The notes below the pieces were generated by a model. It saw nothing but the letters and a program-made list of their open reading frames with translations, had not been told where the DNA came from and did not search any database. This document shows positions 27,447 to 31,730 of a DNA stretch of 64,000 nucleotides, in pieces (the first letter of the stretch is position 1; each line of letters begins with the position of its first letter). The position numbers and the translations under genes were made by a program. This stretch comes from Gemmobacter lanyuensis (lineage in GTDB: Bacteria > Pseudomonadota > Alphaproteobacteria > Rhodobacterales > Rhodobacteraceae), in NCBI RefSeq assembly GCF_014652355.1, contig NZ_BMYQ01000001.1, forward strand, positions 122,180-186,179, written 5' to 3'.

Positions 27447-28709
27447 ATGCGTCGCGTTGTTGTCACGGGTCTGGGGATGGTCACGCCGCTGGCTTGCGGA
27501 GTGGAAGAGACCTGGAGCCGACTGCTGGCGGGACAATCCGGGGCGGGGCCGATCACGCGGTTCGATGCGTCGAATGTGGTCACGCAATACGCCTGTGAAA
27601 TTCCGTTCGGCGACGGGTCGGACGGCACCTTCAACCCCGATGACTGGATGGATGCCAAGGACCGTCGCAAGGTGGATGACTTCATCCTCTACGGCATGGC
27701 GGCGGCGGTTCAGGCGGTGAAGGATGCGGGCTGGCAGCCCGAGGACGAGGAATCGCGCCTGCGGACCGGGGTGATGATCGGTTCGGGCATCGGGGGGTTG
27801 ACCTCGATTGCGGAAACCGCGGTGCTGATCAAGGAAAAGGGGCCGAAGCGCGTGTCGCCCTTCTTCATCCCCGGCGCGCTGATCAACCTGATTTCGGGCC
27901 AGGTGAGCATCCGCTTCGGCTTCAAGGGGCCGAACCATGCGGTGGTGACGGCCTGTTCGACGGGCGCCCATGCCATTGGCGATGCGGCGCGGCTGATCAT
28001 GCTGGGCGATGCGGATGTGATGGTGGCGGGCGGCGCCGAAAGCCCGATCAGCGAAATCGGGATCGCCGGGTTCAACGCCTGCAAGGCGCTGTCCACCAAG
28101 CGCGCCGATGACCCGACCAAGGCGAGCCGTCCCTATGACGCGGACCGTGACGGCTTTGTCATGGGTGAGGGCGCCGGGGTTGTGGTGCTTGAGGAATACG
28201 AACACGCCAAGGCGCGCGGCGCCAAGATCTATGCCGAGGTGCTGGGCTATGGTCTGTCGGGCGATGCCTATCACATCACCGCCCCGTCGGAAGATGGCGA
28301 TGGCGGCTTCCGCAGCATGAGCGCGGCGCTGGCGCGGGCTGGAATCACCCCCGCGCAGGTGGATTACATCAACGCGCATGGCACCTCGACCATGGCCGAC
28401 ACGATCGAGCTGGGCGCGGTGGAGCGTCTGATGGGCGATGCTGCGACCAAGGCCACGATGTCCTCGACCAAGTCGAGCATCGGCCACCTGCTGGGCGCGG
28501 CTGGTGCGGTGGAGGCGATCTTCTGCGTGCTGGCGATCCGGGACCAGATTGCCCCGCCCACCATCAACCTGGATAACCCCGCCGTGCAGCCGAAGCTGGA
28601 TCTGGCCCCGAATGCGGCCGTGAAGCGCAAGATCGACGTGGCGCTGTCGAATTCCTTCGGGTTTGGCGGCACCAATGCGAGCCTCGTGCTGGGCAAGGTG
28701 CGCGACTGA
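27447..28709 (+). CDS. fabF: 3-oxoacyl-ACP synthase II
   Basis: 420 residues from the ATG at 27447 (MRRVVVTGLGMVTPLACG), with AAGGAAG upstream. It condenses malonyl-ACP with acyl-ACP. The catalytic triad is visible as TACSTGAHA (Cys), NAHGTST (His) and SSIGHLLGAAGA (His). The open frame reaches further back across the acpP terminator, which rules out the longer form. Its stop overlaps the mltG start by one base (TGATG). Confidence 0.95.
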   Translation: MRRVVVTGLGMVTPLACGVEETWSRLLAGQSGAGPITRFDASNVVTQYACEIPFGDGSDGTFNPDDWMDAKDRRKVDDFILYGMAAAVQAVKDAGWQPEDEESRLRTGVMIGSGIGGLTSIAETAVLIKEKGPKRVSPFFIPGALINLISGQVSIRFGFKGPNHAVVTACSTGAHAIGDAARLIMLGDADVMVAGGAESPISEIGIAGFNACKALSTKRADDPTKASRPYDADRDGFVMGEGAGVVVLEEYEHAKARGAKIYAEVLGYGLSGDAYHITAPSEDGDGGFRSMSAALARAGITPAQVDYINAHGTSTMADTIELGAVERLMGDAATKATMSSTKSSIGHLLGAAGAVEAIFCVLAIRDQIAPPTINLDNPAVQPKLDLAPNAAVKRKIDVALSNSFGFGGTNASLVLGKVRD

Positions 28710-29869
28710 TGTGGCGGTCGGTCGCCTCGAACGCGCTGACGCTGTTCATCTTTGTGTTGATCGGGCTGGCGGGTTTGCTGGCCTGGGGGCGGCAGGAATA
28801 TCTGGGCAATGGTCCGCTGACGCAGGCCGTTTGCGTCCGGGTGGAGCGCGGCGCCTCGTTGAGTGCGGTGAGCCGCAACCTGCAGGAGCAGGGGGCGATC
28901 AGCGATGCGCGGATCTTCCGCATCGGGGCGAATTATTCGGGCAAAGCGCAGGGCCTCAAATTCGGGTCCTACCTAGTGCCGGAACAGGCCTCTATGGCGC
29001 AGATCCTTGATCTGCTGACGCAGGGCGGGGCTTCGACCTGCGGGCGTGAGGTGAATTACCGCATCGGCGTGGCCAAGGCCGAGATCGTGCTGCGTGAGCT
29101 GGACCCGGCGAACAACCGCTATGTCGAGGTGGTCAAGTTCGATCCTGCCGCCGAAGCTGCGCCGCAGCCCTATGTCGATGCCGCGCTGGAGGGGGATCTG
29201 CGCTGGCAGATCACGCTGGCGGAAGGCGTGACGAGCTGGATGGTGGTAGAAAGCCTGAAGCGGGCCGAATTCCTTGACGGCACCGTGGACGCCGTGCCGC
29301 CGGAGGGCAGCCTGGCCCCCGACGGCTATGTGGTCGAAAAAGGCATGTCGCGGGCCGAGCTGCTGGCCGAGATGCAGGCCAAGCAGAGCGCCACGCTGGC
29401 CGAACTTTGGGCGTCGCGCGCCGAGGGGCTGCCTTATGACACGCCGGAAGAGGCGCTGATCATGGCCTCGATCGTCGAGAAGGAAACCGGCATCGCGGAA
29501 GAGCGCAAGCGGGTGGCCAGTGTCTTCATCAACCGTCTGAACCAGAGCATGCGCCTACAGACCGATCCGACCGTGATCTATGGCCTCACCAAGGGTGAGG
29601 GGGTTCTGGGGCGTGGCCTGCGGCAGAGCGAGCTGCGCCGGGCAACCCCTTACAATACCTATCTGATTGACGGATTGCCGCCGACGCCCATCGCAAACCC
29701 CGGCCGCCTGTCGATCGAGGCGGCGCTGAACCCCGAAACCACGGATTTCCTGTATTTCGTGGCGGATGGCACGGGGGGGCATGTCTTTGCCAAGACCCTG
29801 GCGGAACATAACGCCAATGTCGCCAAATGGCGGGCGATCGAGGCGCAGCAGACCACGCCGCAGCCGTAA
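28709..29869 (+). CDS. mltG: Endolytic murein transglycosylase MltG
   Basis: 386 residues with one N-terminal membrane segment (ALTLFIFVLIGLAGLLAW, about residues 7-24) and a YceG-like catalytic domain. The diagnostic catalytic segment is ASIVEKETGIAEERKRVASV, followed by DPTVIYGL and the terminal region NPGRLSIEAALNP. It cuts nascent peptidoglycan strands at the inner membrane. Translation is coupled to fabF by a one-base overlap. A terminator follows, isolating it from the GTA genes. Confidence 0.93.
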   Translation: MWRSVASNALTLFIFVLIGLAGLLAWGRQEYLGNGPLTQAVCVRVERGASLSAVSRNLQEQGAISDARIFRIGANYSGKAQGLKFGSYLVPEQASMAQILDLLTQGGASTCGREVNYRIGVAKAEIVLRELDPANNRYVEVVKFDPAAEAAPQPYVDAALEGDLRWQITLAEGVTSWMVVESLKRAEFLDGTVDAVPPEGSLAPDGYVVEKGMSRAELLAEMQAKQSATLAELWASRAEGLPYDTPEEALIMASIVEKETGIAEERKRVASVFINRLNQSMRLQTDPTVIYGLTKGEGVLGRGLRQSELRRATPYNTYLIDGLPPTPIANPGRLSIEAALNPETTDFLYFVADGTGGHVFAKTLAEHNANVAKWRAIEAQQTTPQP

Positions 29870-29872
29870 GGA

Positions 29873-29899
29873 AAGGGGAAGCGAGAGCTTCCCCTTTTT
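29873..29899 (+). terminator. Intrinsic terminator after mltG
   Basis: AGGGGAAGC-GAGA-GCTTCCCC followed by TTTTT. It closes the fab-mltG unit before the GTA promoter. Confidence 0.85.
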
Positions 29900-29973
29900 G
29901 CGTTCAGACCGGGTGTTGCGCAGATCCGGCAGGCAGCGCTCTTTCCGTTAAGATATTGAATATAATAAATTAT

Positions 29974-30002
29974 TTGACATTCAGTCCCGATGTGGCTAGA
30001 GA
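29974..30002 (+). promoter_or_regulatory. Promoter of the gene transfer agent cluster
   Basis: TTGACA (29974-29979), exactly 17 bases, then TAGAGA (29997-30002). Just upstream (29947-29973) is a markedly AT-rich stretch, unusual in this genome, suited to an UP element or activator site. Transcription would start near 30009. In Rhodobacter capsulatus the GTA promoter is activated by GafA; whether that protein binds here is unknown. Confidence 0.65.
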
Positions 30003-30028
30003 TGGTGTCGGGCTAGATGAAAAGTGAG

Positions 30029-30066
30029 AGCGACGGATCGGGGTGGCACCCGGCTCGTCGCTTTTT
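30029..30066 (+). terminator. Terminator-like hairpin in the GTA leader
   Basis: Stem AGCGACGG..TCGGG pairs with CCCGG..TCGTCGCT (one mismatch, two G-U pairs, six-base loop 30043-30048), directly followed by TTTTT (30062-30066). It lies after the predicted transcription start and before g1, so it would stop transcripts at about 58 bases or act as an attenuator. Confidence 0.65.
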
Positions 30067-30109
30067 GCATTTCACTCGTGCGGAGGCATGAGAGGCGGGC
30101 GGCAACAGG

Positions 30110-30439
30110 ATGGGAATTGAATTCTCCGTCGGGGAACACGGGCCGGAGGCTTTGCTGAAGGCATCGGAAGATCTGTATCGAGAGGTGGCGCTGGAATTGG
30201 CCGAAGCATCCCGCAGGGTGCGGGACGGCGAATTCGGTGAGGTCAAGGCGGCGATGCAAGCCGCCCGCGACCTGCGCGCCGCCTTTCAGTTGGTCATGGA
30301 TGAGAGGACACGGGTTGACAAACTCCGCAAGCAGGTTGCCGGGGTCGCAGGAGGCGCCGGAGAATTGGATTTCGCCGCGGCAAGGTCTGAAATCGGGCGC
30401 CGCCTGGCTCGCCTCCGTGACGCAGGACACGGTGGATGA
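30110..30439 (+). CDS. GTA g1, small terminase subunit-like protein
   Basis: 109 residues, mostly charged helices (EDLYREVALELAEASRRVRD, then SEIGRRLARLRDAG), in the position of GTA gene g1. In Rhodobacter capsulatus this product is the small terminase that assists packaging. The ribosome-binding site before the ATG at 30110 is poor: the strong CGGAGG at 30081 is too far away and instead precedes an ATG at 30088 that opens an 11-codon frame ending at 30120. The 3' end overlaps the terminase large subunit gene in another frame. Confidence 0.7.
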   Translation: MGIEFSVGEHGPEALLKASEDLYREVALELAEASRRVRDGEFGEVKAAMQAARDLRAAFQLVMDERTRVDKLRKQVAGVAGGAGELDFAAARSEIGRRLARLRDAGHGG

Positions 30440-31730
30440 GTTTCTGAACGGTCTGAGCGATGCGGCGCTGCTGGCGCTGCCCTGGATGTTCGAGTTTTGG
30501 GCACTGCCGCATCAGCTCCCGCCGGAGGGGGCTTGGAAAAGCTGGGTCATCATGGGCGGGCGCGGGGCGGGCAAGACGCGGGCGGGCGCCGAATGGGTGC
30601 GGTCCATGGTCGAGGGGGCTGGCCCCACCGATCCGGGGCGGGCCACGCGGGTGGCGCTGGTCGGGGAAACCATCGATCAGGTGCGCGAGGTGATGATCTT
30701 TGGCGACAGCGGCATTCTGGCCTGTTCGCCCCCCGACCGCCGCCCGCAATGGGAGGCCACGCGTAAGCGGCTGGTCTGGCCGAATGGCGCGGTGGCGCAG
30801 GTCTTTTCGGCACATGAGCCCGAAAGCCTGCGCGGGCCGCAATTCGATGCGGCCTGGGTCGATGAGCTGGCCAAGTGGAAGAAGGCCGAGGAAACCTGGG
30901 ATCAGCTGCAGTTCGCGCTGCGGCTGGGGCCGAACCCGCAGCAGGTGGTGACGACGACGCCAAAGAATGTGGCGGTCCTGAAGTCGATCCTGCGGAACCC
31001 GTCCACCGTGGTGACCCATGCGCCGACCGATGCGAACCGCGCCTATCTGGCGTCCTCGTTCCTGGAGGAGGTGAAGGCGCGCTATGGCGGCACGCGTCTG
31101 GGCCAGCAAGAGCTGGAGGGGACGCTGCTGGAGGATGCGGAGGGCGCGCTTTGGACCACGGCCATGCTGGAGCGTGGCCGGGTCGACCAGGTGCCCCCCC
31201 TGAGCCGGGTGATCGTGGCGGTGGACCCGCCCGTCACGGGCCATGGCCGGTCGGACGAATGCGGCATCGTGGTCGTGGGCGCGGTGACCGAGGGGCCGGT
31301 GCAGGACTGGCAGGCCTATGTGCTGGAGGATGCGAGCGTGCAGGGGGCCTCGCCCGATGCCTGGGCGCGGGCGGCGGTGGCGGCGATGGAGCGTCACGGC
31401 GCCGAACGTCTGGTGGCCGAGGTGAACCAGGGCGGCGATCTGGTGCAAAGCGTGATCCGCCAGGTGGACCCGCTGATCCCGTTCCGGGCGGTGCGGGCGA
31501 GCAAAGGCAAGGTCGCGCGGGCCGAACCGATTGCGGCGCTTTATGAGCAGGGGCGGGTCAGTCATCTGCGTGGTCTGGCCCGGCTGGAGGACCAGATGTG
31601 CCGCATGACCCTGCGTGGCTATGAGGGCCGGGGGTCGCCCGACCGGGTTGATGCGCTGGTCTGGGCGCTGACGGCGCTGATGGTGGAGCCGGGGCGGGCG
31701 TTGCGCCGCCCGCAGGTGCGGCTCTTGTAG
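30417..31730 (+). CDS. GTA g2, terminase large subunit
   Basis: About 437 residues if it starts at the GTG at 30417 (MTQDTVDEFLNGL); an ATG at 30300 in the same frame would give 476 residues but overlaps g1 by 140 bases with peptide that looks unselected. The packaging ATPase shows Walker A GGRGAGKTRAG and Walker B AAWVDELAKW; the RNase-H-like nuclease domain begins VIVAVDPPVTG. It cuts and pumps DNA into the capsid. In GTAs this enzyme packages random host DNA rather than its own genes. Confidence 0.9.
   Translation: MTQDTVDEFLNGLSDAALLALPWMFEFWALPHQLPPEGAWKSWVIMGGRGAGKTRAGAEWVRSMVEGAGPTDPGRATRVALVGETIDQVREVMIFGDSGILACSPPDRRPQWEATRKRLVWPNGAVAQVFSAHEPESLRGPQFDAAWVDELAKWKKAEETWDQLQFALRLGPNPQQVVTTTPKNVAVLKSILRNPSTVVTHAPTDANRAYLASSFLEEVKARYGGTRLGQQELEGTLLEDAEGALWTTAMLERGRVDQVPPLSRVIVAVDPPVTGHGRSDECGIVVVGAVTEGPVQDWQAYVLEDASVQGASPDAWARAAVAAMERHGAERLVAEVNQGGDLVQSVIRQVDPLIPFRAVRASKGKVARAEPIAALYEQGRVSHLRGLARLEDQMCRMTLRGYEGRGSPDRVDALVWALTALMVEPGRALRRPQVRLL

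Follow-up and report, generated by a model that had tools for sequence, protein, structure and literature searches.

A putative promoter-proximal terminator conserved in the GTA leader of Rhodobacteraceae and its possible bypass by GafA

The GTA cluster of Gemmobacter lanyuensis is preceded by a short leader in which a promoter is followed almost at once by a strong hairpin with a U-tract. This element occurs once in the genome, stands at the same position in most sampled genera of the family, has a covarying stem and is statistically linked to gafA. Our favoured reading, which we consider probable, is that transcription of the GTA operon meets an early checkpoint in the leader, where an intrinsic terminator would block basal transcription and GafA, loaded at the promoter, would allow its bypass. 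Termination at the hairpin, a role of GafA as antiterminator and binding of IHF upstream of the promoter are the predicted parts of this scheme.

Results

Layout of the leader

The window analysed here is the 64,000-nt stretch of contig NZ_BMYQ01000001.1 from position 122,180 to 186,179 (forward strand), and the coordinates in Table 1 are counted from its first nucleotide. Its cluster is headed by overlapping g1 and g2 genes for TerS and TerL, as in an RcGTA-type GTA, although g1 itself has no Pfam match. Among named sequences, those most similar to g1 are from Gemmobacter. A preliminary description of this DNA had noted a TTGACA-17-TAGAGA promoter, then a strong hairpin and TTTTT ahead of the first GTA gene; both are present, with the hairpin about 17 nt past the predicted start. 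Folding of 30026-30068 gives -24.9 kcal/mol (z -4.30; as good in 2/200 shuffles), and the wider stretch 30009-30070 has a z of -2.43 (as good in 5/200). GC-rich and directly followed by its U-tract, the hairpin has the structure of an intrinsic terminator. Since the mltG gene upstream owns a terminator of its own, the leader hairpin is not that of mltG. A consensus scan of the window listed neither the leader promoter nor the leader hairpin, because its promoter pattern requires T as the last base of the -10 element and its terminator pattern allows no internal loop. A 10-codon ORF (30088-30120, + strand) opens within the 3' arm of the second hairpin and runs, out of frame, into the start of g1; many relatives share its ATG, for which the stem of that hairpin accounts.

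Table 1 Features in and around the GTA leader, in window coordinates
Feature	Position	Strand	Basis
mltG/yceG	28709-29869	+	Pfam YceG domain
Intrinsic terminator of mltG	29870-29899	+	fold -21.1 kcal/mol, z -5.33
IHF-like site TAAGATATTGAAT in AT-rich block	29949-29961	+	8/9 informative positions of YAANNNNTTGATW
-35 element TTGACA	29974-29979	+	sequence; alignment of relatives
Promoter spacer, 17 nt	29980-29996	+	conserved CG.ACGgTC in relatives; window copy degenerate
-10 element TAGAGA, no T at -7	29997-30002	+	sequence; aligned GTA promoters
Predicted start (30009/30010) and initially transcribed element	30009-30025	+	consensus CAWGCTRGAAGAARTGGGC in relatives
Lower stem, 5' arm UGAAA	30018-30022	+	pairs with 30070-30074
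Terminator: hairpin 30026-30065 and U-tract 30062-30066	30026-30066	+	fold, covariation, leader counts
Lower stem, 3' arm UUUCA, beyond the U-tract	30070-30074	+	pairs with 30018-30022
Second hairpin CUCGUGC-GGAG-GCAUGAG	30075-30092	+	fold; covariation
g1 (TerS)	30110-30439	+	homologues adjoin TerL in relatives
g2, large terminase	30417-31730 (putative start)	+	Pfam Terminase_6N and Terminase_6C

The terminator is conserved across the family

We sought g1 in 198 genomes of the family, one per genus, and in 11 genomes of the same genus, and obtained 119 and 10 matches, respectively. Loci were taken from 90 of the 119 family genomes, from the same-genus genomes and from seven named loci. These 107 loci were reduced to 100 non-redundant ones for counting by dropping L001 (a copy of the window), L092 (whose g1 match was lost) and L002-L006 (the same genomes as L040, L044, L047, L041 and L046). 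A hairpin finder, run on the 110 nt before g1 with a threshold of -15 kcal/mol or lower, detected a terminator in 82 of the 100 leaders, with a median energy of -23.6 kcal/mol and a median end 45 nt before g1. Among 1000 dinucleotide shuffles 4.2% reached this threshold, and five control stretches taken from the same loci gave 5, 13, 2, 3 and 6 of 100. The leader terminator is not a product of chance.

Eighteen loci had no counted terminator. In L027 and L078 one lies further upstream, the start codon having been wrongly chosen; in L060 it is weaker; and in L045, L047, L056 and L087 it is degenerate or lost. Within the genus itself, L045 has no hairpin with a U-tract, and those of L044 and L047 are weak. 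Eleven of the 100 GTA loci have neither the promoter motif nor the leader terminator, with TerL intact (L065, L069, L071, L075, L080, L083, L086, L091, L101, L102 and L106).

The hairpin was also assessed by an anchoring blind to it, in which loci were aligned on the motif that opens the transcript. This motif scores above 5.4 in 84 of 100 loci, the highest reverse-strand score being 5.3, and directly after it the fold has a z below -1.65 in 77 of 84 loci, as against 6, 9, 12 and 5 of 84 at four control offsets. The window's own copy of the initially transcribed element is weak, scoring 12.7 where many relatives exceed 25.

Covariation of the terminator stem and further RNA structure

In a structure-blind MAFFT alignment of 84 leaders, the ten pairs of the terminator stem, chosen after viewing the same alignment, are formed in 90.2% of cells, with 65 double-change cells against 19.6 ± 3.4 in shuffles (0/500 as high); slid registers reach at most 28 double-change cells and 57% pairing. 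In 30 further loci found by a covariance model, the stem is paired in 84.5% of cells (expected 77.6 ± 1.4). The check that the preliminary description had proposed, conservation of the hairpin, is borne out both by the occurrence of the terminator in the leaders and by the covariation of its stem.

Two more structures lie downstream of or around the terminator. In the first, a lower stem, GAARUG of the initial transcript pairs with CAUUUC past the U-tract. It is paired in 88.1% of cells, with 13 double-change cells against 5.0 ± 1.9 in shuffles; slid registers -3 and -2 give 19 and 14, above the true register, at far lower pairing. C16 goes with G92 in 5/8 (Fisher 0.0011, kinship not corrected). 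For the second hairpin (CUCGUGC/GCAUGAG), pairing stands at 84.9% of cells and 17 cells have changed on both sides, as against 4.4 ± 2.0 in shuffles; registers -1 and +1 give 17 and 21 such cells at 31% and 26% pairing. In the 30 further loci, pairing is 78.1% against 75.3 ± 1.6 for the lower stem, a small excess, and 69.7% against 65.2 ± 1.9 for the second hairpin. For both structures the covariation is thus less clear than for the terminator stem, and they are the more tentative part of the predicted fold. The stretch 30010-30093 as a whole folds at -39.6 kcal/mol (z -4.01).

These structures bear on another reading, in which the hairpin stabilises the GTA mRNA at its 5' end or controls its translation, with little termination and an incidental U-run. 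The 3' arm of the lower stem is made only after the U-tract, so this stem cannot serve termination, and the pairing of the first transcribed bases beyond the U-tract, the association of C16 with G92 and the second hairpin that follows all speak for this reading. In most leaders, however, a U-run follows the stem, and the stem base keeps A/G-U pairs with it; the case for the lower stem is in turn reduced by its slid registers and by its small pairing excess in the further loci. We therefore regard such a role as unlikely, and a terminator as the better account of the hairpin.

The element occurs once in the window's own genome, at the GTA

Searched with the covariance model, the window's own genome gives a match of E 1.5e-11 at the GTA, the next-best place having an E of 0.048; the leader element occurs once in this genome. 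In 87 of the 100 loci the model has a match that lies in the leader before the GTA terminase, on the right strand; it also matches 123 of the 198 family genomes (one per genus), many of the 123 having helped to build it. Thirty of these 123 genomes had no g1 match; 27 of them have TerL downstream of the leader and one has g1. The match in G108 has neither TerL nor g1 within the 472 nt to the contig end. In the single-contig genome G141, a leader match is present and TerL is absent genome-wide.

This distribution bears on the possibility that the locus makes a functional small RNA of about 57 nt, with the GTA operon reached by read-through or from another start. A promoter, a short transcribed stretch and a terminator are indeed all present. 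Against this, both arms of the stem vary freely with compensation, which is more in keeping with a structure than with a base-pairing seed, the element stands before the GTA terminase in 87/100 loci, and our literature search found no small RNA of such kind at a GTA leader. This option appears quite improbable to us, and under termination with antitermination the short RNA of about 57 nt is expected to be a by-product.

A class-wide search of 289 genomes with stricter filters (E <= 0.001) returned three matches, namely the window's own genome, one of the same family and G264; the 289 include at least four genomes of the same family, among them G229, which has TerL and no match. The one match outside the family, in G264, is not at its GTA. 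This match and the second of the matches in G110 were dismissed as chance, there being no TerL or g1 in the 2.7 kb retrieved for each.

Two individual loci deserve mention. In G141 the leader (L167, 601-701) stands between mltG-like and cysE-like genes, a likeness judged by eye, and DUF6456/gafA is kept; judging from this arrangement, the GTA cluster was likely deleted and its leader left behind. L008, from a MAG labelled Sphingomonadales, carries the leader, and its TerL nests within the Rhodobacter family tree, which marks the sequence as mislabelled or transferred.

Promoter anatomy

Of the 87 leaders with a model match, 83 have TTGAC at a distance of 26-36 nt upstream of the conserved initial element, and the spacing is 31 or 32 nt in 80 of these 83. 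When the 83 leaders are aligned at TTGAC, the spacer carries a conserved CG.ACGgTC, the -10 element is TAnA and lacks T at -7, and a conserved CA marks the predicted start. The -7 position is usually A or C, and a T there is described as absent from most Alphaproteobacteria promoters (PMC8407463). The predicted start has a median position of -97 from g1 and lies within -125 to -76 in 81/83 leaders; in R. capsulatus, the GTA start and GafA binding were mapped to 76-125 bp before g1 (PMC6363796). This agreement places the hairpin downstream of the start and hence, as far as the start is predicted correctly, downstream of the regulated promoter.

The same geometry speaks to a third alternative, in which the hairpin is an insulator against transcription arriving from mltG. 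That gene does lie upstream on the same strand, but it is already closed by the terminator at 29870-29899, and the hairpin sits downstream of the GTA promoter and in register with it, which makes insulation very improbable. In site, the spacer element CG.ACGgTC of relatives corresponds to the Caulobacter GafZ-binding element, and it resembles GCGCCCG by eye.

The preliminary description had also singled out an AT-rich block just upstream of the -35 element. We scored this region against YAANNNNTTGATW, which we take to be the IHF consensus. Sites with at least 8/9 positions occur in 37 of the 83 promoters, compared with a null of 3.5% and with 2, 4, 2 and 1 of 83 in four control stretches, and 30 of the 37 begin 25-29 nt upstream of TTGAC, the window's AT-rich block among them. 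The block is indeed present and is best read as an IHF-like site, at which IHF would bind. As a separate observation, CtrA-like repeats ([TG]TAAN-N6-[TG][TA]AAN) occur within 110 nt upstream of the -35 element in 27/83 leaders and in 1/83 of a control stretch. In sixteen of these leaders the repeat begins 52-57 nt upstream, as at about 56 nt from TTGAC in L010, L020, L021, L024 and L057, and in six it begins at 26 nt and runs into the IHF-like site. CtrA or the N-terminal part of GafA may bind these repeats; CtrA of R. capsulatus is reported not to bind the GTA promoter of that species.

The leader and gafA

The window's own genome encodes a single DUF6456 protein, recognised by PF20057 (G000:C1:619714-620121), a domain that we take to be the mark of GafA and GafZ. 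Among 14 control genomes, the sole PF20057 match is that of Caulobacter. The own gafA gene (L108:1465-2607, - strand) encodes 380 amino acids with an N-terminal HTH and DUF6456, the R. capsulatus protein having an implied length of 382 (PMC9638019). Its promoter carries TTAAC-N6-GTAAC at 68 nt from the start codon, a CtrA-type site that has also been reported from the gafA promoter of R. capsulatus (PMC6363796). A homologue of an antiterminator is thus encoded elsewhere in the genome, with a CtrA site at its gene.

Across the 198 family genomes, 120 have both leader and DUF6456, 3 the leader only, 58 DUF6456 only and 17 neither, so that the leader accompanies DUF6456 in 120/178 genomes and is found in 3/20 lacking it (Fisher 7.5e-6). 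DUF6456 is also more diverged where the leader is missing (median -log10 E of 54.2, against 61.4 with the leader), and its median falls to 51.4 in the 11 GTA genomes that have TerL and no leader. A TerL tree with 94 rows requires 7 changes of the leader label, 5 or more of which fall on branches with good support (the bootstrap had not settled). The paired test, for which 30 rows of the tree were entered and the threshold was chosen afterwards, gave five independent pairs, about 4.8 in the same direction and 0 in the opposite one, with p 0.0625, the best value possible with five pairs. The data are consistent with a link between leader and GafA, the weight of which is limited by kinship. The eleven leaderless loci, with their more diverged DUF6456, possibly represent another mode of GTA control that has arisen several times.

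Discussion

Of the options raised by the preliminary description, which had proposed control by attenuation or antitermination, antitermination is the best supported: conservation, covariation, the gafA link and a published case in Caulobacter all favour it, and here we infer it from them. The other half of that proposal, an attenuator in which a leader peptide, riboswitch or alternative fold alone decides termination, matches the order promoter-terminator-gene but is extremely improbable, since only about 17 nt precede the stem, too short a leader, the best structure without the 3' arm reaches only -5.5 kcal/mol, no start codon is conserved before the stem (ATG stands at the predicted start in 28/83 leaders and other triplets elsewhere, for which reason a leaderless peptide was also rejected), and the window has 0 Rfam matches at the gathering score and hence no known leader RNA family. 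With a stem that begins so soon after the start and so weak a fold before its 3' arm, there is no room for RNA sensing ahead of termination, so control must come with the polymerase, as a promoter-loaded antiterminator does.

In the checkpoint that we propose, RNA would start near 30010 from a sigma-70 promoter, with probable help from IHF and from GafA's N-terminal half. Unmodified RNA polymerase would halt about 57 nt on, at 30026-30066, so that basal or stray initiation yields only a short RNA. The C-terminal half of GafA (DUF6456, homologous to Caulobacter GafZ) would load onto polymerase at the promoter, and polymerase modified in this way would pass the terminator into g1 and the cluster of about 14 kb. 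That the terminator is kept across most sampled genera of the family suggests that GTA production needs a read-through factor. Several observations sit less easily with this scheme: the spacer and initial-transcript elements of the window are poor copies although its terminator is strong, which makes GafA loading less certain here than in relatives; 11/100 GTA loci lack the leader; DUF6456 is present in 58/75 family genomes without a leader match; the known Caulobacter terminator follows the first gene instead of standing in the leader; and contact with the omega subunit is known for GafA but not for GafZ.

The closest parallel is the Caulobacter crescentus system of PgtaT, GafY-GafZ, IHF and terGTA (Tran and Le 2024, PMC11150451). 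It shares with the leader described here a GTA operon, an IHF-like site upstream of the -35 element, a conserved element in the -35/-10 spacer, a DUF6456 protein and a terminator barring the cluster, and its order is GafY site, IHF site, -35, GafZ site, -10. In Caulobacter, GafZ enables read-through of terGTA and rrnB T1, and the 2024 paper raises the possibility that GafA does likewise (PMC11150451). GafA is described as homologous to a fusion of the activator GafY and the antiterminator GafZ. Caulobacter terGTA comprises three repeats of 150 bp that follow the first gene and lie behind an untranslated region of 229 nt (PMC11150451), whereas here there is one compact hairpin about 17 nt after the start, and GafA is one fused protein. 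Antitermination itself is demonstrated in Caulobacter (PMC11150451) and predicted here.

With R. capsulatus, the leader shares its position before g1, a start 76-125 bp upstream of that gene and a CtrA-controlled gafA; the mechanism described there is activation through the omega subunit (PMC6363796, PMC9638019). In the text of these two papers on the RcGTA promoter, the words 'terminator' and 'hairpin' have 0 occurrences, and our searches of the openly available literature yielded no account of a terminator in the leader of an RcGTA-type cluster. A family-wide terminator directly after the start would give the idea of GafA antitermination its missing target and a simple test. If true, it would explain why stray initiation at the GTA promoter spares cells, and early termination with promoter-loaded antitermination would be shared GTA control in two alphaproteobacterial families. 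Judging by its title, work on Bartonella BaGTA (Korotaev et al. 2025) places a GTA of a different type under antitermination as well. The preliminary description had suggested that a leaky terminator would fit GTA expression in a small share of cells. In Rhodobacter and Caulobacter, however, this share is described as being set at an earlier regulatory step than the leader, by CtrA/GtaR acting on gafA and by RogA acting on gafYZ, respectively, which makes a lock on basal transcription the likelier role of the terminator.

In lambda, the pR'/tR'/Q arrangement has a terminator soon after the promoter, a short terminated RNA and an antiterminator loaded at a promoter element, and Q-type antitermination involves a -10-like pause element in the initial transcript. 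An early terminator, a short RNA and promoter-loaded antitermination would be the features shared with lambda Q and with Pseudomonas AlpA (as presented in PMC11150451). We claim no homology to either, and we could not establish that the GTA leaders conserve a -10-like pause element: their initial element, T(G/A)GAA, has G at 0.60 and A at 0.37 at the position where a -10 element needs A.

The put RNA of phage HK022 consists of two neighbouring stem-loops, which open a transcript that has to pass terminators. Two adjacent stem-loops are likewise predicted for the GTA transcript, although here the first stem-loop is itself the terminator. Since the initial bases pair past the U-tract and the second hairpin is conserved, the read-through RNA may be under selection too. 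An extension of the checkpoint, which we think distinctly unlikely, is that this RNA forms a compact two-stem put-/nut-like anchor that stays with GafA-modified polymerase and renders it termination-proof over the 14-kb cluster; were this so, the stop signal would become part of the anti-stop signal. In relatives, the first bases of the transcript, from +1 to about +8 (CAWGCTRGA), are conserved and lie in none of the stems.
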